Shown one piece after another: positions 13,951 through 40,747 of a stretch of 42,582 nt of DNA (within the stretch, counting starts at the first letter, position 1; the number at the start of each line of letters is the position of its first letter). Both the position numbers and the translations under genes were made by a program. Source of the stretch: a virus. The stretch is from positions 1 to 42,582 of the IMG/VR virus record IMGVR_UViG_3300046491_000074, one strand, 5' to 3'. The notes beneath the pieces were generated by a model. It was not told the DNA's origin, ran no database searches, and saw only the letters and a list, made by a program, of their open reading frames with translations.

Positions 13951-14219
13951 TCGAACCTCCAGCATGGGTGTATCCGATCTTTAACTTCCTCCGGAACTAT
14001 TTTCACACCTACCATCTCCTGGAGACTCGCTAACTGTTTGACACGAGCATACTTAATCATTTCGTGCCTTAACCTCTCGCTCCAGACCAGTGTGTACTTG
14101 ACGCCCATAGAGTCCTCAACTTCCAAAGGTTCGTAAGGGTCAGTGATTTTGGTGATGGTAACCATCTGGATTTTGTCCGTTATAGCCCGGTGGACTGAGA
14201 GTGTGGGGGGAAGCTTCAT
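13947..14219 (-). CDS. Hypothetical protein, 90 aa
   Basis: Beta-rich first half (MVTITKITDPYEPLEVEDS; GVKYTLVWSE) with a basic helical second half. No family recognised. The ATG at 14219 has GGAAGG and an ATGA overlap; the longer upstream frame has low-complexity codons unlike real protein. Confidence 0.73.
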   Translation of the reverse strand: MKLPPTLSVHRAITDKIQMVTITKITDPYEPLEVEDSMGVKYTLVWSERLRHEMIKYARVKQLASLQEMVGVKIVPEEVKDRIHPCWRFE

Positions 14220-26711: not shown

Positions 26712-29138
26712 CTATACCACCATGCTTACGCGGTCGTAGATCGCCTGGGTGCCTCCGTAAGCTGCCGCAGAGACTTTCAGCTCGAAGTCAAGCTCTGGTC
26801 CCAGCTCTCGCATCATGGCCCTGAAACGGGTTGACGACACCGGCTTTGAACCTCCGGCAGAAAGGCAGAAAGCGAAGTACGCATTGAAGAGCTTTGTTTC
26901 CGTGGAGAATACACCCTCGATACCAGTCTTCACCTTGCCTGACTCCTTGACGAAGTAGCGCACGCTGTTGTTGACGTTCGCCAGCTCGTCGGAGATAAGC
27001 TTGTGACTTGCCGGAAGAGTATAGTCGTTATTCCTGAGCAACCTCGGCATTGCCTGCGCTGCCCAGGCGACGATTGCTTCACGTTCTTCCGACGCGATGA
27101 TGTCACCCAGGTCTGTGATCTTGTTCTCTGCCGAGACAGGATAGTGGAAAGTCAGGAACAACCAGCGGCGAATGAAGCCGTTCGAAGTGTCCGAAGACTT
27201 CGGCATGTGGTTCGAGGCAAACCAGTGAGTGACACTGGGCCGGAACGTGAAAATCGCCTGATTCTTATGTTGACCCGAGATTTCCTGCCCATCAACGATG
27301 TCTTTGAACGACTGGCCGTCGATCAGTTTGTGCTCCGAAAGCTCGCCGCAGACATTCAGGATTTTCCCGTGCATCTGGGCTGGCATGAACTTGTCGTTCC
27401 AGACGTTAGGAGGTACGCTGCACTTGGCCTCAGCCGGAACCAGGCTCTCCATGATACGAAGCATCTGGGATTTGCCCGATTTAGGAGCACCGTGCAGCAG
27501 AACAGCGCGCTGGTATCGTGGACCTTGACCAAAAAGCGTGACGCAGAGGGCCTCCTGCATGGCTTCCATCTTCTGCTCGAAGTCCTGATCACGACCCCAG
27601 GAGTCGTTCAAGAACTTGGCAAACAGTGGGAACTTGCCTGCTTCCTCTTCCATGTAGCGGAATGGTAAGGTATAGACCATGCCATAGTCCGGATCATGGG
27701 GGATCAACTTCAGCTCAAGGGTGAGGAACCCGTTGGCGAAGTTCACGCCCTTCACGGAGCGGCGCTCGATCCCCTGTTCTGCCACGTAAGTGAGGACGTT
27801 GAGGATGCCATTGATGTCGGACGAACGTTTGCAGGCATCCAGGTGGCCGTAGTTCTCGGAGATGAGAGCCTTGATGTAGTTCTTGTCCATTTCGACCCAG
27901 TGGGAACCACCCCACTTCATGAACTTGTCGTTGTGGCAGCGCACTACGTTGTACTGCTCCAGGTCCTTAAGGACTGCCCGAGCGATCTCACTATGATCAG
28001 TACCACGAACATCACCAGTGCGAAGCTCACGCAGACGCCCACGGAAAGTCGTAATAGGCACTCCAAGACCCGAAACATCCACAATATACTTGAGCACGCG
28101 GTCTTCATCGATTTTGGTCAGTTGATTGGACTTGGCAACCTTGGCAAGGATGCGCTCGACTGCCTCGGAACGTTCTTTGCCATTGGGGTGGGCTTCGAAC
28201 TGTTCCCGAAGGTACTGCTGGATTTGGTCATAGGACCACTCCGTATCCTCCTCGGTGAGGGTGACACCCATTTCCTGGAGCTGTTCCTTGGTAAAACCCT
28301 CGTCCCAACCACGGGGGAGAACCTTGCCCTTATCTTGTACGTCACGGTGCAGGAACCGGATGAGGTTATCAACGTGCTTTTCCACGCCGACCTGATCCCC
28401 TGCCACGTTGTCGATGAACTCGGCGTGGTAAGCCTGGAGCATACCAATCGCCTCTTTCAGGGTCCTTTCGCCACGTACAACCGCGAAGGCAAACAGACCA
28501 GCCAGCTCGGTTAAGGTCGTATCACGCGAGCCTGCCGAAACGTGCTCGGTTACACGCGACCAACCGGAGTGGGAAAGTTCGACACCAGCATTGGACACGG
28601 CCTGGCGCAGGATTTCTTCGATGTTCTCCGGCAGGCAAACGAGCTGGTGCAGGACATCGACCAAATCGCAGTTCGCCTCGTATGGTTTCAGCGTTTCCGG
28701 GTGGATCGAAGGTGGCAGAACGCACTGGGTACGGCTCGACAGAGTTTCAACGATGGTCTCGCCCGAGATGTTCTTGACCCGGTGGGTCTTGATGGGTGAC
28801 CACTTGTAAGCCAACATCAGGCCTTTTTTACCAAGGCGTTTCCACGGCGAGGGTGGCAGCACAGCCATGATCGCATCGAACACCTCTTTCTTGTCGGTGT
28901 CGATGTCGATCATGATCAGGCCGGAGGACTTACCTAGAACAAGGCCGATGTTCGCCTGGGAATTTCCTACGATCCACTGCTCTTGCTGAGCAGCATCGAC
29001 CGGAGTTTCCGCGAAGCGGGACCAGTCCTTGGGGATCGGGCGCTTTTCCCGTGCGAAAAGGGGGATAACATTGAGTCCTGCTGCGTAGTACCTGGGGGCG
29101 GTGTCAGCGAAGATAGTTGGGGAGTTGACGGTGCTCAT
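26712..29138 (-). CDS. Bifunctional Prim-Pol and D5-like SF3 helicase (phage primase-helicase)
   Basis: 808 aa. The N-terminal part has the archaeo-eukaryotic primase-polymerase motifs MIDIDTD (about residue 78, metal site) and PPSIH (about 143). The C-terminal half is a D5/P4-type superfamily 3 helicase: P-loop GAPKSGKS near 551, CGELSE, the N-containing sensor FASNH near 641 and Arg finger GFIRRW near 655. It primes and unwinds phage DNA at the replication fork. The start ATG is four bases past the stop of the preceding small gene, with no strong own site, so translation is coupled. It is the largest early gene and the replication core. Confidence 0.92.
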   Translation of the reverse strand: MSTVNSPTIFADTAPRYYAAGLNVIPLFAREKRPIPKDWSRFAETPVDAAQQEQWIVGNSQANIGLVLGKSSGLIMIDIDTDKKEVFDAIMAVLPPSPWKRLGKKGLMLAYKWSPIKTHRVKNISGETIVETLSSRTQCVLPPSIHPETLKPYEANCDLVDVLHQLVCLPENIEEILRQAVSNAGVELSHSGWSRVTEHVSAGSRDTTLTELAGLFAFAVVRGERTLKEAIGMLQAYHAEFIDNVAGDQVGVEKHVDNLIRFLHRDVQDKGKVLPRGWDEGFTKEQLQEMGVTLTEEDTEWSYDQIQQYLREQFEAHPNGKERSEAVERILAKVAKSNQLTKIDEDRVLKYIVDVSGLGVPITTFRGRLRELRTGDVRGTDHSEIARAVLKDLEQYNVVRCHNDKFMKWGGSHWVEMDKNYIKALISENYGHLDACKRSSDINGILNVLTYVAEQGIERRSVKGVNFANGFLTLELKLIPHDPDYGMVYTLPFRYMEEEAGKFPLFAKFLNDSWGRDQDFEQKMEAMQEALCVTLFGQGPRYQRAVLLHGAPKSGKSQMLRIMESLVPAEAKCSVPPNVWNDKFMPAQMHGKILNVCGELSEHKLIDGQSFKDIVDGQEISGQHKNQAIFTFRPSVTHWFASNHMPKSSDTSNGFIRRWLFLTFHYPVSAENKITDLGDIIASEEREAIVAWAAQAMPRLLRNNDYTLPASHKLISDELANVNNSVRYFVKESGKVKTGIEGVFSTETKLFNAYFAFCLSAGGSKPVSSTRFRAMMRELGPELDFELKVSAAAYGGTQAIYDRVSMVV

Positions 29139-30053: not shown

Positions 30054-31844
30054 ATGATGCTCGCTAACCAATACGCCAAAGAGTTGCTCGGCCTGATGAC
30101 GAATCGCTACGACCTGGATCAGGTCGGCATGTCGATGGGCCAGTACCTGGAGAAGAACACCACCCTGCGGGGCCGTCCGTTCTCGTTCAACCGCTACCCG
30201 TACCAGCGCGCGGTGGTGGATGACGAGCATAACAACCAGGTGGGTATCAAGTGCTCGCAAGTCGGCTGGTCGGAGATCATCCAACGTTGGGCACCTTCAT
30301 GGCTCAAGCGTCACCGCGCAAGTAAAGGCATTTATGCTTACCCGGATGACGACATGAGAAAGAAGAACGTCCAGACTCGACTCATGCCGTTGGTTGACAA
30401 CAACAAAGTTTTCAACCTTGACACAGGTGTAAAGAAGCCGATTCGCTCCATCGAACTTTTACAGATCGACCAGTCGTTCCTGTACTGCACTGGTTCGAAG
30501 GTTGGAGATGCAACTTCAACCGACGCGGACTTCGTGATCCTGGACGAGTACGACCTGCATAACATGCAGATCGCAGCACTGTTCCAATCTCGCCTGCAAA
30601 ACTCCGAGTACAAGATCAAGAAATACTTCAGTACCCCAACTTATACGGAGTTTGGGGTCGATAAGCTGTACAGAGACAGCGACCAGATGGAGTACCAAAT
30701 CAAGTGTGACTCCTGCAACCACTGGCAGTTCCCGTTGTTCACCCCGGACTTCGTGCATATCCCGAAACTGCCTTCTGACCTAAATAGCCTGTATGAGATC
30801 GACCAGCATTTGATCGAGAGTCGGCATCTGGACCTTGAGAACTCCTATGCGTGCTGCCAACGTTGCCGAGCCCCTCTCGACTTGGGACGGGAAAACAACC
30901 GTGCTTGGGTCGCAAAGTACCCCTCCAGAGCCTACCTGCGGGGACGGCGCATCAATTGCTTCAGCGTGTCAACCCGCCCGGTTGTGGACTTGATCACCGA
31001 ACTCCAGGACTACAAACGCCGGGACTTTATCCGTGGTTTCAAGAACTCGGTACTTGGCGAAGCTGAGGATAGCTCGAACGTCAGGATTAGCGAGGCCGAC
31101 ATCCGTGCTTGTTTCCGCAGCCGGGAGGTTCCGGAGATTGATAAAGACATGCCAACGTGGTTGGGTGTGGATATGGGCCACAACTGCCACATCACAGTGG
31201 GCCAAGGTTTCGACATCACGAAGGTACGCATTGTGCGTATGATGGTTGTTCCGCTCGCACGCCTACTGGAAACCATCAAGGAGCTTGACGAAACCTACAG
31301 CATTGTTGGGGGGCACGTTGACCGCCACCCAGAGAGCCAGTCAGCGAACGATGTTCGAGACCTGACTGGTCGTCGTATTCTTCCTTGCGAATATCGTGGC
31401 TCGAAAGAGATCAACCTGGTGGCCGGTCCTGAGGGTCCAGAAGACATCATCCACATCCAGGCAGATCGCACCACACTCCTGGACGAAGTAGCAAAGGCTT
31501 TCCGTTCTAAAGCAATAGAGATCGAAGGCTACGAGAATATCGAAACCCAAGAGATCATCACCCATCTCCGAAACATGGTCCGTATCGAGTCGCCAGAAAC
31601 CCCCGCAGTCTGGGAGAAGCTGGACCCGAGTGACCACTTTTTCCACTCTATAGGCTTCATGCTGACGGCCATGAAAACCAAGCGGGTTTTGGGTTTCAAG
31701 CAGGATGTACCACAAACCGTTATTGGCGTTGTGGGGGTGGACGATAAAAGTTACAATGCGGACATTTACGGCAACCCGATTGGAAAGAAACTCACTCCAT
31801 GGCAAACACAATTCTTGAACTCGGGGCAAAGGCGCTGGCTTTAA
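30054..31844 (+). CDS. terL: Terminase large subunit, GpA-like
   Basis: 596 aa. Matches the lambda gpA type: an ATPase with a modified Walker A (KCSQVGWSE near residue 65), Walker B ILDEYD near 160, a zinc-finger-like pair CDSC (near 220) and CQRC (near 270), and a nuclease domain with GVDMGH near 372. It docks at the portal, pumps DNA into the prohead and cuts it. The start is the first of two adjacent ATGs, with no strong Shine-Dalgarno visible. No small subunit is recognised in this window. Confidence 0.92.
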   Translation: MMLANQYAKELLGLMTNRYDLDQVGMSMGQYLEKNTTLRGRPFSFNRYPYQRAVVDDEHNNQVGIKCSQVGWSEIIQRWAPSWLKRHRASKGIYAYPDDDMRKKNVQTRLMPLVDNNKVFNLDTGVKKPIRSIELLQIDQSFLYCTGSKVGDATSTDADFVILDEYDLHNMQIAALFQSRLQNSEYKIKKYFSTPTYTEFGVDKLYRDSDQMEYQIKCDSCNHWQFPLFTPDFVHIPKLPSDLNSLYEIDQHLIESRHLDLENSYACCQRCRAPLDLGRENNRAWVAKYPSRAYLRGRRINCFSVSTRPVVDLITELQDYKRRDFIRGFKNSVLGEAEDSSNVRISEADIRACFRSREVPEIDKDMPTWLGVDMGHNCHITVGQGFDITKVRIVRMMVVPLARLLETIKELDETYSIVGGHVDRHPESQSANDVRDLTGRRILPCEYRGSKEINLVAGPEGPEDIIHIQADRTTLLDEVAKAFRSKAIEIEGYENIETQEIITHLRNMVRIESPETPAVWEKLDPSDHFFHSIGFMLTAMKTKRVLGFKQDVPQTVIGVVGVDDKSYNADIYGNPIGKKLTPWQTQFLNSGQRRWL

Positions 31845-34959: not shown

Positions 34960-36150
34960 ATGTTTCGCAAACTCACCGATATCAAGCGCCAAAGCCCGGA
35001 AGCGGTCCTGGCGAACCTGAAGTCGTCCAACCAGTCCGAGTCGATCCAGGCTGGCCTCTCGCTGGTCCGCACGGCCAAGGAATACGGCCTGTGCCTCCAG
35101 GACTACCTGAAGATCGCCATCGATCCGCGCCAGTCGAAAACCCCGATGAAGTTCGACGGCCTGAACGGCTTCGAGTCGGCACTGCTGGAGCTGGGCCTGC
35201 CGTTCCGCGACGACTACTCGCAGGGTGTGCTGCTGCAAGCCGCGTCGGATTCGTTCCAAACCTACCCCGGCACCCGTGCGATGTTCCCGGAAGTCGTGGA
35301 CCAGATGCTGCGCTTCAAGAACCGTCAAGACCACATCGAGAAGGTGGAACCCCTGCTGGCGCAGTCGCGCACCATCAGTGGCACCGAGCTGATCTCGACC
35401 TTCGTGGAAGACGGCGAAGAAATCCGTGCAACTGCGACCATCGCTGAATTCGGCCGCATCCCGGTTCGCACCCTGACGACCTCGCAAAGCTCGGTCGGCA
35501 TCTTCAAGCACGGTTCTGGCATCCGTACCTCGTACGAGTTCGAGCGCCGCGCCTCGCTGGACATCCTGACCCCGTACGCGGCCCGTGTGGACCGCGAGCT
35601 GGAAATCTCGAAGGTCCGTTCGGCTACCAACATCCTGCTGAACGGTGACGGCGTGAACCCGGCTGCTACCGCCATGAAGTTCTCGGACTTCAACGGCACG
35701 AGCATCGCCGATGGCACCAACCCGCTGTCGAAGCAGTACAAGGCCTTCGCAACCTGGCTGGTCAAGCGTGCCAAAGCTGGCCTGCCTATCGACACCATCG
35801 TCGGCAACCTGGACATGTACCTGGAACTGCTGTTCATGTTCACGCCGACCCTGGCAAGCGACCGCGCCGAGATCGAGGCAATGGTGGCTCGTGGTGGTCC
35901 GGGCATCAACCTGAACATCCCTCTGCTGAACGGCAGCGCCCAGTTCGTCCTGTCGAGCAACATGGGCGCGAACAAGCTCCTGGGCTACAGCCGTGCCGAC
36001 ACCCTGGAAGAGCTGATCGAAGCTGGTTCCTCGATCTCGGAAAACGAGCGTTCGATCCAGAACCAGTCGGTGGTCTACGTTCGCAGCGAGAACACCGGCT
36101 ACAAGATCGCAATGGGTGACACCCGCTGTGTCCTGGACCTGGCCCAGTAA
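34960..36150 (+). CDS. Major capsid protein
   Basis: 396 aa, the usual size, in the expected place after the decoration gene. An N-terminal helical arm (KLTDIKRQSPEAVLANLKSS) that could be cleaved, a long core with E-loop and A-domain style strands (TLTTSQSSVGIFKHGSGIRT), fits the HK97 fold. Codon use is strongly biased: Leu is almost all CTG, and GC-ending codons dominate, as for a highly expressed gene. GGAG is six bases upstream of the ATG. A strong terminator follows. Confidence 0.9.
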   Translation: MFRKLTDIKRQSPEAVLANLKSSNQSESIQAGLSLVRTAKEYGLCLQDYLKIAIDPRQSKTPMKFDGLNGFESALLELGLPFRDDYSQGVLLQAASDSFQTYPGTRAMFPEVVDQMLRFKNRQDHIEKVEPLLAQSRTISGTELISTFVEDGEEIRATATIAEFGRIPVRTLTTSQSSVGIFKHGSGIRTSYEFERRASLDILTPYAARVDRELEISKVRSATNILLNGDGVNPAATAMKFSDFNGTSIADGTNPLSKQYKAFATWLVKRAKAGLPIDTIVGNLDMYLELLFMFTPTLASDRAEIEAMVARGGPGINLNIPLLNGSAQFVLSSNMGANKLLGYSRADTLEELIEAGSSISENERSIQNQSVVYVRSENTGYKIAMGDTRCVLDLAQ

Positions 36151-36164
36151 GCATCGCTGGAAGG

Positions 36165-36191
36165 AAAGCCCCGCCTCGGCGGGGCTTTTTT
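36165..36191 (+). terminator. Terminator after the major capsid gene
   Basis: Eleven-base arms AAAGCCCCGCC and GGCGGGGCTTT with a 2-base turn, then TTTTT. A textbook rho-independent terminator that separates the capsid operon from the next. Confidence 0.9.
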
Positions 36192-36214
36192 ATTTCCAGG
36201 GCACATGCTACACT
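36187..36214 (+). promoter_or_regulatory. Promoter-like sequence of the connector operon
   Basis: Extended -10: TGC TACACT, followed by CG. The -35 (TTTTTA) is poor and overlaps the preceding terminator. Its following leader has AAACCCCAACC, similar to the leader before the chaperone gene. Confidence 0.45.
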
Positions 36215-36252
36215 CGTGGCGTTCAAACCCCAACCCATTGTAAGGATTCTGT

Positions 36253-36537
36253 ATGAAGCTGCTCGTAAAGCCCACTGGTCCCCATTACTACCTTGACCCA
36301 GTTACGGGGGATGAAATCCAACCATTCCGCGCCAGTGTGATCCGCCCCTCCCAGTTCATTAATACCCTTCTGGGTCAAGCCAAGTTGTCCTTGGTAGCTG
36401 GTGACCTCACTGACGCTGCCACTGATGTGGAGTACGAAAAGTTCCTGTCTGATTCGGAGGGGAAAGAGGGCCTGGCAAACGACGCCTTCGTGTCCAAGTT
36501 TTCGACCGTACAACCTGCTGGTAAAGAAGAGGAGTAA
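36253..36537 (+). CDS. Hypothetical virion-region protein, 94 aa
   Basis: Acidic, N-terminal strand-turn pattern (HYYLDPVTGDEIQPFRASVI) and Glu-rich tail (GKEEE). Placed between the major capsid gene and head-tail connectors, a slot that often holds a capsid-linked or connector accessory protein. No motif recognised. TAAGGA before the ATG. Confidence 0.8.
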   Translation: MKLLVKPTGPHYYLDPVTGDEIQPFRASVIRPSQFINTLLGQAKLSLVAGDLTDAATDVEYEKFLSDSEGKEGLANDAFVSKFSTVQPAGKEEE

Positions 36538-38687: not shown

Positions 38688-39116
38688 ATGTTAGTTCGAA
38701 ACCTTCACGCTTCAGTCCTCAGGTTCTGCTCCGACTTTGCAGAAACCCATGGGCTTACCTCAGTCAACTTTGATGCTCATGCTGACGACTCATCCCTACC
38801 CCCAGGAGATGTTGTTGGAATGTCTGGGTTATCCTGGGACGTTGACGACGAGATTCTTTCGGTGAACGTTCTGTTCGGAATTACTACCCAGGAGGATACC
38901 AATCTTTTCAAGCTGATTGAGAAGATGGATTTGCTGTTTGATCTGCTGCTACCGACGAAGCTGATACCGGCTTACGATGCCGATACGGGGGAGAGGATTG
39001 GAGAGTTCGTGGTAAGGAATGGAACCAAGGCCTTACCCGTTCAGGGGACAGAAGCCAGGCCGCTTCAGTTCGTGATGGTTGGCCTGGTTTCTACGGTGAC
39101 TTTCAACCAGAATTAA
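38688..39116 (+). CDS. Tail terminator candidate, 142 aa
   Basis: 142 aa, the typical length and position for the tail terminator protein that caps the tail tube. Strands and helices alternate (DEILSVNVLFGITTQEDTNL; LQFVMVGLVSTVTFNQN at the end). Call is by position and length. AGGAG precedes the ATG at 38688. Ends by overlapping the convergent RHH gene by four bases. Confidence 0.7.
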   Translation: MLVRNLHASVLRFCSDFAETHGLTSVNFDAHADDSSLPPGDVVGMSGLSWDVDDEILSVNVLFGITTQEDTNLFKLIEKMDLLFDLLLPTKLIPAYDADTGERIGEFVVRNGTKALPVQGTEARPLQFVMVGLVSTVTFNQN

Positions 39117-39313
39117 AGCTCAGTAACGGCACCTTCACGAATAGCCTTTGCTTCTCGTACCTTGTGGAGGTCTAGAGCCTCCTCCAGGAGTACGATGATC
39201 TCCTGGGCACGCTTACGGCGGGTTCGTTTTTCCCGCTCATCGATCTGGTCTACCAACTTCCTGGGAAGTCGAACGGTGAAGGATACTAGGTCCTTGCCAG
39301 TGGGGGTTGTCAT
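39113..39313 (-). CDS. Arc-like ribbon-helix-helix regulator, opposite strand
   Basis: 66 aa. VSFTVRLPRKLVDQIDERE followed by RKRAQEIIVLLEEAL is the strand-helix-helix of MetJ/Arc-type DNA-binding dimers. It lies reversed within the tail genes, between tail terminator and tail tube, with its own promoter overlapping that of the tube gene. It is therefore a moron-like insertion and a candidate repressor of the tube promoter or of a phage operator. ATG with AAGGC. Confidence 0.85.
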   Translation of the reverse strand: MTTPTGKDLVSFTVRLPRKLVDQIDEREKRTRRKRAQEIIVLLEEALDLHKVREAKAIREGAVTEL

Positions 39314-39348
39314 TTTGAGCCTTTTGAAGTAGGGATTTTAAAAACCAG

Positions 39349-39378
39349 TTGCCATGCGATAATAGCAGTGCGTATAAT
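39349..39378 (+). promoter_or_regulatory. Promoter of the tail tube gene
   Basis: TTGCCA, 18 bases, TATAAT, then CG. A near-consensus promoter 46 bases before the tube start, overlapped by the divergent promoter of the RHH gene. Confidence 0.75.
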
Positions 39379-39387
39379 CGCGTGCAA
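39359..39387 (-). promoter_or_regulatory. Divergent promoter of the RHH gene
   Basis: On the minus strand TTGCAC, 17 bases, TATTAT, about 45 bases upstream of the RHH ATG. It shares the same DNA as the plus-strand promoter, so binding of polymerase on one side should block the other. Confidence 0.72.
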
Positions 39388-39423
39388 CACCCTGAATTCC
39401 TTACCTCTGACTGGAGAACCCAA

Positions 39424-40233
39424 ATGGCTGGAGAAGCAAAGACCACAGCGTTCATGCTTGGCACCGCAACCATCATGCTCGGCGCGATGGCCGACCTGAT
39501 GTCCCTGAACGACAACCACTCGGTCGGCCTCGTCAAGAACGTGACCGTCAAAACCACGCCTGGTTTCACCGAACTGACCCAGGGCGTGAAGAACAGCCCG
39601 GTCTTCTCGGTCCAGACCCAGAACGACTCTGATGTGACCGGCGAGATGTACGAGTACACCTCGAAGAACCTGTCGTACTCGGCAGGTCTGGATGGTTCCT
39701 CGGTGAAAGCAACCACCGTGAAGAACACGGTCAAGACCGCAGTCGTCGCTCCGGTAGACCCAGCTCCTCTGGGTGCTGCGGCAATCCCGATGGATGATAC
39801 GGCAGGTTTCGCTGCTGGTGACACGGTGTTCGTGACCCCCCCAGGCACCGAGAATGTCATGGTACGCAACATCGCCAACATCGACGCGGCAACCAAGACC
39901 CTGACCCTGAACCTGGGCCTGCCGTTCGCCGTGCCGGTCGGCACCGTGATCCAGAAGGTCAACGTCGTCCCAGTCGGAAGCACCGACGACCAACCCTACC
40001 TGGCTGCGAAGATCGTCGGCAAGCTGGCGAACGGAGACATGGTTGCTATCCTGCTGCCGAAGGTGCGGATCACCTCGGGCCTGTCGCTGGCCTTCAAGAC
40101 CGACAACTTCGACAACATGCCGCTGCAACTGAAGGTGTACGAACAGGTCGCCAGCGACCCGTACTACCAGATGTTCCAGAAGGTCGGCCCGATGCAGAAA
40201 CCGGCGAAGGCCATGCTGCTGGCCGCTGGCTAA
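39424..40233 (+). CDS. Major tail tube protein
   Basis: 269 aa. Beta-rich (VKTTPGFTELTQGVKNSPVF; GDTVFVTPPGTENVMV) with the strand pattern of tail tube proteins and an inserted domain. GC-ending codons dominate as in the capsid gene, as expected for an abundant protein. It stacks in rings to form the tail tube around the tape measure. Start with TGGAG eight bases upstream; a longer upstream frame is not supported. Confidence 0.85.
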   Translation: MAGEAKTTAFMLGTATIMLGAMADLMSLNDNHSVGLVKNVTVKTTPGFTELTQGVKNSPVFSVQTQNDSDVTGEMYEYTSKNLSYSAGLDGSSVKATTVKNTVKTAVVAPVDPAPLGAAAIPMDDTAGFAAGDTVFVTPPGTENVMVRNIANIDAATKTLTLNLGLPFAVPVGTVIQKVNVVPVGSTDDQPYLAAKIVGKLANGDMVAILLPKVRITSGLSLAFKTDNFDNMPLQLKVYEQVASDPYYQMFQKVGPMQKPAKAMLLAAG

Positions 40234-40249
40234 GTCGTAACCTCCAAGG

Positions 40250-40280
40250 AAAAGCCCCACGAAAGTGGGGCTTTTCTTTT
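40250..40280 (+). terminator. Terminator after the tail tube gene
   Basis: Eleven-base arms AAAAGCCCCAC and GTGGGGCTTTT with GAAA loop, then CTTTTGG. Separates tube from chaperone unit. Confidence 0.88.
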
Positions 40281-40300
40281 GGAAAGACCTTGTATATACT
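40272..40300 (+). promoter_or_regulatory. Promoter-like sequence before the chaperone gene
   Basis: TATACT followed by CG as -10, with TG three bases upstream; -35 TTTTCT is poor and overlaps the terminator. Leader has CTAACCCCCAACC. Confidence 0.45.
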
Positions 40301-40333
40301 CGACGGCTCTAACCCCCAACCTTTGAGGACCTT

Positions 40334-40747
40334 ATGGACCAGAAACCCAACACTCCACCCCCGATGAGCATTTCGGTAACTGTCAACGGTGTCGAACGCG
40401 AAATCTTCATGCCGTTCGCTCTGCTGAACAGGCTGTCGCACATGCTGGGGGACATCCAGAACCTCGGCATGGTTCACCTTAACCCCGAAGTGCGTGAAAC
40501 CTTCCTGGTGGAACTCCTGCACGAGCGTGGTCCAGGCGGGAAGGTCACGAAAGAAGCCATCCTGGATGAGCTGGAGATTCCACTCCAGGACATCGAACGT
40601 CTGCTGGACTTCACTGCGGAACACATCCTGGATTTTACTCTGAGGGTCATCGAGCGAGCAACGACCCTCCAGGAAAAGAACCAGGCTCGAATGTTACACT
40701 TGAAGTCTATTCAAGCTGGGCTGGAAAACTCAACCTCGAAGAGTTAG
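40334..40747 (+). CDS. Tail assembly chaperone, short form
   Basis: 137 aa. Position between tube and tape measure and acidic helical composition fit the tail assembly chaperone (lambda gpG-like). GAGG precedes the ATG. Two in-phase slippery-like sites (GGAAAAG at 40672, GGAAAAC at 40723) lie before the stop, and the -1 frame is open from 40570 to 41013, so a longer form is likely made. Confidence 0.83.
   Translation: MDQKPNTPPPMSISVTVNGVEREIFMPFALLNRLSHMLGDIQNLGMVHLNPEVRETFLVELLHERGPGGKVTKEAILDELEIPLQDIERLLDFTAEHILDFTLRVIERATTLQEKNQARMLHLKSIQAGLENSTSKS

Follow-up and report, generated by a model that had tools for sequence, protein, structure and literature searches.

The tail tube gene of this siphophage is probably governed by a single-target switch, in which a small ribbon-helix-helix (RHH) protein would act as autorepressor and as repressor of the tube gene, in the manner of the P22 immI region but rewired to a structural gene. 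The locus lies in a window of 42,582 nucleotides (the whole stretch of viral DNA analyzed, IMG/VR record IMGVR_UViG_3300046491_000074), which is about half of a ~80-kb siphophage genome. The kin of the window phage include Achromobacter phages 2-1 and JWF, Xylophilus phage Lumi and Caulobacter phage Seuss. Its gene order (terminase at 30054, portal at 31799, head protein at 34960, tube, tape-measure chaperone at 40334) is the same as that of Achromobacter phage JWF, which has been described as temperate (PMC9959647). Computed here were the anatomy of the locus and its conservation, the family of the RHH protein, the identity of the tube gene, the terminator behind it, and the selection acting on the intergenic DNA.

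Anatomy of the tail tube locus

The locus contains the following features, in order along the window:

38688..39116, plus strand: upstream late gene (tail completion-type); ATG at 38688 read directly, whereas the open reading frame list starts at TTG 38649
39113..39313, minus strand: RHH (Arc/Mnt/AmrZ-type) regulator gene, 66 aa, from the open reading frame and profile matches
39320..39325, minus strand: Shine-Dalgarno-like AAAAGG of the RHH gene, read directly
39343..39347, plus strand: AACCA half-site in AAAAACCAGTTG, just 5' of the tube -35; candidate operator piece
39349..39378, plus strand: predicted tube promoter, -35 TTGCCA (39349-39354), N18, -10 TATAAT (39373-39378)
39356..39381, no strand: dyad GCGATAATA-N8-TATAATCGC, spanning both -10 boxes and lying inside TTGC...GCAA
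39359..39387, minus strand: RHH promoter candidate, -35 TTGCAC (39387-39382), N17, -10 TATTAT (39364-39359)
39413..39416, plus strand: Shine-Dalgarno GGAG of the tube gene, read directly
39424..40233, plus strand: major tail tube protein gene, 269 aa (phrog_28493, E = 8e-80)
40249..40280, plus strand: intrinsic terminator after the tube gene, AAAAGCCCCAC-GAAA-GTGGGGCTTTT plus T tract, read directly

Along the DNA, the promoter boxes follow each other in the order -35 (+), -10 (-), -10 (+), -35 (-), i.e., they are interleaved. Each promoter has a -35 and a -10 of its own, and 8 bp lie between the two -10 boxes. A sequence-only reading of this DNA had already described interleaved boxes at these positions between the two open reading frames, and direct reading confirmed the boxes and both frames. 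The same reading had placed the locus inside the late morphogenesis region and had called the leftward protein RHH/Arc-type, which was borne out by the gene order and by profile and fold, respectively. Its claim that polymerase cannot bind both promoters at once holds at the sequence level, and the geometry is equal to that of P22 Pant/Pmnt.

The predicted tube promoter matches the consensus at 11 of 12 positions. Its sigma70 PWM score of 14.1 exceeds all others in the 42.6-kb window, both strands included (the next is 11.8), and comparison with dinucleotide shuffles of the intergenic region (110 bp) gave p = 0.010. The leftward candidate matches at 8 of 12 positions, falls under the threshold of the promoter scanner, scores 8.7 (rank 23rd in the window) and reaches p = 0.07 against such shuffles. 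It is thus predicted to be weak and, taken alone, no better than chance. The candidate gains support because its boxes form a dyad and because Lumi, the nearest relative on the tube tree (grouping with the window at support 92), has an equal layout: the predicted Lumi promoters (TTGAGA-N17-TAGAAT and TTGCCT-N17-TATCAT) have the box order and the 20-bp overlap of those in the window. Promoter-like scores in the intergenic regions of relatives, which are non-independent, exceeded those of shuffles on both strands (Fisher p = 1.3e-4 for plus and 1.5e-6 for minus). An interleaved geometry in every relative was rejected, as the others have back-to-back or partly overlapping promoter candidates. The common theme among relatives therefore appears to be promoter overlap, not the exact interleaved geometry.

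The profile of the tube family matched a solved "Tail tube" structure (9n71 chain B, E = 7e-71). A scan found a terminator directly 3' of the tube gene in 61 of 74 loci, compared with 1 of 74 for a control stretch within the gene, and such a terminator is already annotated in the JWF and Seuss records. The terminator of the window escaped both scanners because its stem extends into the T tract. By virtue of the terminator directly behind it, the tube gene is predicted to be a one-gene transcription unit of its own. The gap between the start codons of the RHH and tube genes is ~110 bp in the window, mostly 85-120 bp in relatives, and 55 bp in a group with N-terminally extended RHH-like proteins. 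At the other end, the stops of the RHH gene and of the upstream late gene overlap tail to tail in the window, and the same kind of overlap was found in 47 of 52 distinct loci; in the remaining five, the script had mostly chosen a longer unrelated frame. Owing to this overlap, late read-through would pass the RHH gene antisense.

Two junctions of the window, which follow the capsid gene (36151-36256) and the tube gene (40234-40334), are divergent copies of one sequence, each with a terminator hairpin, a TAYACTCG -10-like box and a AACCCCAACC leader. They align with a score of 25, compared with a maximum of 13 for shuffles. A check of 2-1, JWF, Seuss and Lumi did not find this junction repeat. 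The -10-like box, written as TA[CT]ANT(T)CG, occurs five times in the window when both strands are searched. Four occurrences (33340, 36209, 39373 and 40295, all plus strand) lie in gaps of the late region shortly 5' of genes, and the fifth is at 27020. The box, a post hoc find, is a possible common signature of late promoters.

The RHH gene and its conservation

The window's RHH protein, with the beta-strand SFTVRLP, matched the Arc-like transcriptional regulators of PHROG (phrog_7906, E = 9.5e-7) and the Pfam Arc family at E = 0.0014, with a score of 18.9 just under the cut-off of 20.4. Among RHH family members, 26 of 41 matched Pfam Arc at E<=0.01. Compared with solved structures, the family profile matched AmrZ (1.5e-6), Mnt (7.4e-5) and Arc (1.1e-3). 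The AlphaFold2 (AF2) monomer of the protein (pLDDT 86) has two helices, with the strand not formed in the monomer model, and its best fold match in the PDB was AmrZ (E = 0.023, probability 1.00). Profiles and model assign the leftward protein to the ribbon-helix-helix (Arc/MetJ) family. The gene is under purifying selection, with dN/dS of about 0.05-0.35 for pairs with estimable dS, and the RHH proteins of relatives are often only 20-40% identical to that of the window. JWF gp17 is already annotated as an "Arc-like DNA binding domain protein". We also noted RHH genes that are unannotated in the GenBank records of Seuss (L004, 3508-3894, minus strand) and Lumi (L005, 3020-3277, minus strand).

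Single-sequence searches of IMG/VR with the RHH and tube proteins of the window gave no matches. A five-phage tube alignment identified 92 relatives in IMG/VR, of which 80 were kept. Together with the GenBank phages, these 80 loci yielded 72 distinct tube loci with enough upstream DNA. A divergent RHH gene was present at the tube locus in 62 of the 72, with 52 typical proteins and 10 N-terminally extended RHH-like proteins, the latter assigned by motif (FTLR strand) and not by profile. The remaining ten had no RHH gene. On the tube tree, the label "none" requires 5 changes, compared with 9.6 for shuffled labels. The simplest reading is that the gene is ancestral-looking at the tube locus with few losses, and that it is dispensable in some lineages, as judged from the ten distinct loci without it. 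Named hosts of the RHH-bearing lineage are alpha- and betaproteobacteria, whereas the RHH-less cousins are found on gammaproteobacteria. Two RHH-less lineages keep a -10 box upstream of the tube gene, TATAAT in Acinetobacter phages and TATAAC in Pseudoalteromonas phage KB12-38, indicating that the tube cassette can exist without RHH.

A subgroup of seven loci (L035, L037, L041, L064, L069, L074 and L081) encodes a protein of ~110 aa with an N-terminal extension before the FTLR strand. These loci have the 55-bp gap, and the spacers of their tube promoters share a conserved palindrome, AGGTAT-N6-ATAACCT.

Intergenic constraint and operator candidates

The intergenic DNA is under strong constraint. 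Between loci L002 and L013, it is identical at 89 of 89 positions, compared with 12 of 22 fourfold sites in the RHH gene (dS about 1.1). In the window, the arms of the dyad across the -10 boxes are complementary at 8 of 9 positions. The dyad is present in a single copy in the window, and not one of 300 dinucleotide-shuffled sequences attained its gapped self-complementarity. The automated repeat search had passed over it owing to the mismatch and the gap. As a general operator, the dyad was rejected: an IMG/VR search returned 8 contigs carrying it, none with a tube homologue in the stretch examined.

Most Arc-like relatives have AACC-N6-AACC as a direct repeat with a 10-bp period that runs into the tube -35 as AACCTTTG, so that a tandem AACC-N6-AACCTTTG motif covers this box. 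A pattern search of 17 related records and the window found the motif about once per ~80-kb record, at the tube locus. With one mismatch allowed, no match was found in Lumi, and the one match in the window, at 14124, is away from the locus. The half-site of the window aligns with the AACCTTTG of relatives and is common to Lumi, where it reads AAACCAGTTG. It is also the only place in the window with an exact match to AAAAACCNGTTGNC. The operator candidates of the window are only one AACC half-site and a dyad without sequence match in most relatives, which counts against a switch here.

Repeats were also found within promoter spacers, as AACC repeats in the minus-promoter spacer of L022 and L025 and as AGGTAT-N6-ATAACCT in the plus-promoter spacer of the group with the 55-bp gap. 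Such repeats would be sites where a bound protein blocks polymerase. The top k-mer separating loci with an xFTxR strand in the RHH protein from the rest was AACCT (17/22 vs 2/22). This association is confounded by descent, because the tree implies no more than about three changes of the protein trait (1-3 independent contrasts).

Two further intergenic regions are worth recording. In that of L029, the AACC half-site is present three times with a 10-bp period (AACCACAAATAACCTTAGATAACCTTTG), as would be expected if RHH dimers bound next to one another. A perfect inverted repeat, GGTAGCAC...GTGCTACC, extends across the tube -10 and the start region in L015, L018, L021 and L024 only.

A proposed switch for the tail tube gene, its rivals and known counterparts

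In the switch that we propose, the small RHH protein would be expressed from a leftward promoter whose boxes interleave with those of the rightward tail tube promoter, bind the shared region of ~110 bp and repress the tube gene as well as its own, with RNA polymerase occupying only one of the two promoters at once (mutual exclusion). As the tube gene is a one-gene unit, with a strong sigma70-type promoter and a terminator, the switch would tune tube alone. It would set the timing and amount of this very abundant protein and leave neighboring late genes untouched. In a lysogen, the repressor would keep the tube promoter, which is strong and host-type, switched off. During lytic growth, the rise in operator copies with replication and antisense late read-through over the RHH gene would probably lift the repression. 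Promoter activity, DNA binding, repression over activation, and the mechanism of relief are what we infer from the sequence.

The RHH gene runs antisense to the late genes around it, its 3' end reaches into the upstream late gene, and no space is left for a terminator, an arrangement that suggests a convergent-transcription timer. The onset of late transcription would then silence the RHH gene and free the tube promoter with no dedicated late activator. We advance this timer tentatively and consider it rather doubtful. If true, it would couple tube output to late read-through.

The RHH protein might instead activate the tube gene, or have a dual role as AmrZ does: it would bind beside the tube -35, recruit polymerase late in infection and so shut its own overlapping promoter. 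This is unlikely in our judgment, even though AmrZ is the closest solved relative. The AACC repeats of Arc-like relatives lie just 5' of or over the -35 and occur with a poor -10 (TACGAT, TAGCAT), as is frequent at activated promoters, and activation one way represses the other at bidirectional promoters (PMC12825309). However, the tube promoter of the window is so near consensus that it should need no activator, and the candidate operator of the 55-bp group, inside the plus-promoter spacer, fits a repressor. It is quite unlikely that the promoters simply overlap without a regulatory link, with the RHH protein acting elsewhere (on promoters of the host or on further phage genes) and the two genes merely competing for polymerase. 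Bacteria frequently have overlapping divergent promoters (PMC12825309, PMC10268837), the tube cassette lacks RHH in ten distinct loci, and binding at the shared region is a prediction. Yet synteny persists despite the low identity of the RHH proteins, intergenic identity exceeds that of synonymous sites, and the repeat motif is nearly unique to the tube locus, which points to a local target.

The sequence-only reading had further proposed that the RHH gene could be an autonomous moron. A small gene that opposes the operon and has its own promoter would suit a moron, or a toxin-antitoxin remnant, inserted in the late operon, and P22 immI, in a comparable place, has been called a moron (PMC2629481). 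We nevertheless hold this origin to be very improbable. Morons are inserted in some relatives and absent in most, whereas the RHH gene keeps its place in 62 of the 72 distinct loci and is under purifying selection. Its presence is clustered on the tube tree, with 5 changes, several relatives lack it only as apparent losses, and the small gap holds no partner toxin gene. The same reading had named the absence of RHH from relatives with an intact tube promoter as evidence against a switch. Such absence was found for the Acinetobacter phage and KB12-38 lineages only. Its idea of a built-in switch emerges strengthened and plausible.

Most siphophages carry the tail tube gene as part of a long late operon, and its product is needed in large amounts at the right time. 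If true, a conserved local repressor for the tube gene alone would make it a rare structural gene with a dedicated regulator. The region of ~110 bp and the 66-aa protein form a directly testable system.

In bacterial bidirectional promoters (Warman, Grainger and colleagues; PMC12825309, PMC10268837), polymerase binds pseudo-symmetric DNA in either orientation with mutual exclusion, as would be the case here. They share one -10 element, with start sites beside or within it (PMC12825309). The window has two distinct -10 boxes and so is not a bidirectional promoter of the shared -10 type. JWF gp17 occupies the orthologous position, divergent from the tube gene, where the JWF record annotates the protein alone. 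We found no description of its promoter/operator arrangement or of the conservation thereof, and an open-licence literature search found no paper on an RHH gene paired with a tail tube promoter.

AmrZ of Pseudomonas, the closest solved structure by both profile and fold, binds DNA as an RHH dimer type with its beta-strand. AmrZ is both activator and repressor, with many host targets. It is a global regulator of the host, whereas the RHH gene of the window is a phage gene whose relatives have about one candidate site per genome.

The overlapping Pant and Pmnt promoters of P22 are targets of Mnt and Arc and work as a repressor-controlled switch. P22 mnt/arc was run through the identical promoter scan as a yardstick, with a Mnt query 100% identical to the GenBank record. 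The RHH profile of the window family matched Mnt. As in the window, the RHH gene of immI is located within the late region, opposes its direction and is divergent from the next gene, with a gap of 90 bp, between genes 16 and 9. Pant and Pmnt (TTGACA-N17-TATATT and TTGAGA-N17-TATCAT) have the box order of the window, with a promoter offset of 5 bp as opposed to about 9-10 bp. The rightward genes differ. In P22, they encode the second repressor Arc and the antirepressor; in the window, the rightward gene is the tail tube, and the locus has no antirepressor or sieA. The locus is thus not a member of the immI group, and "works like" describes the relationship better than "is". The immI region has been proposed to affect the tailspike level through late read-through, and it is variable, as an "ant moron" (PMC2629481), whereas the RHH gene of the window lineage is near-constant. 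The Mnt/Arc layout, usually seen as a passenger, may therefore have a stable counterpart here, as a lasting part of the genome.
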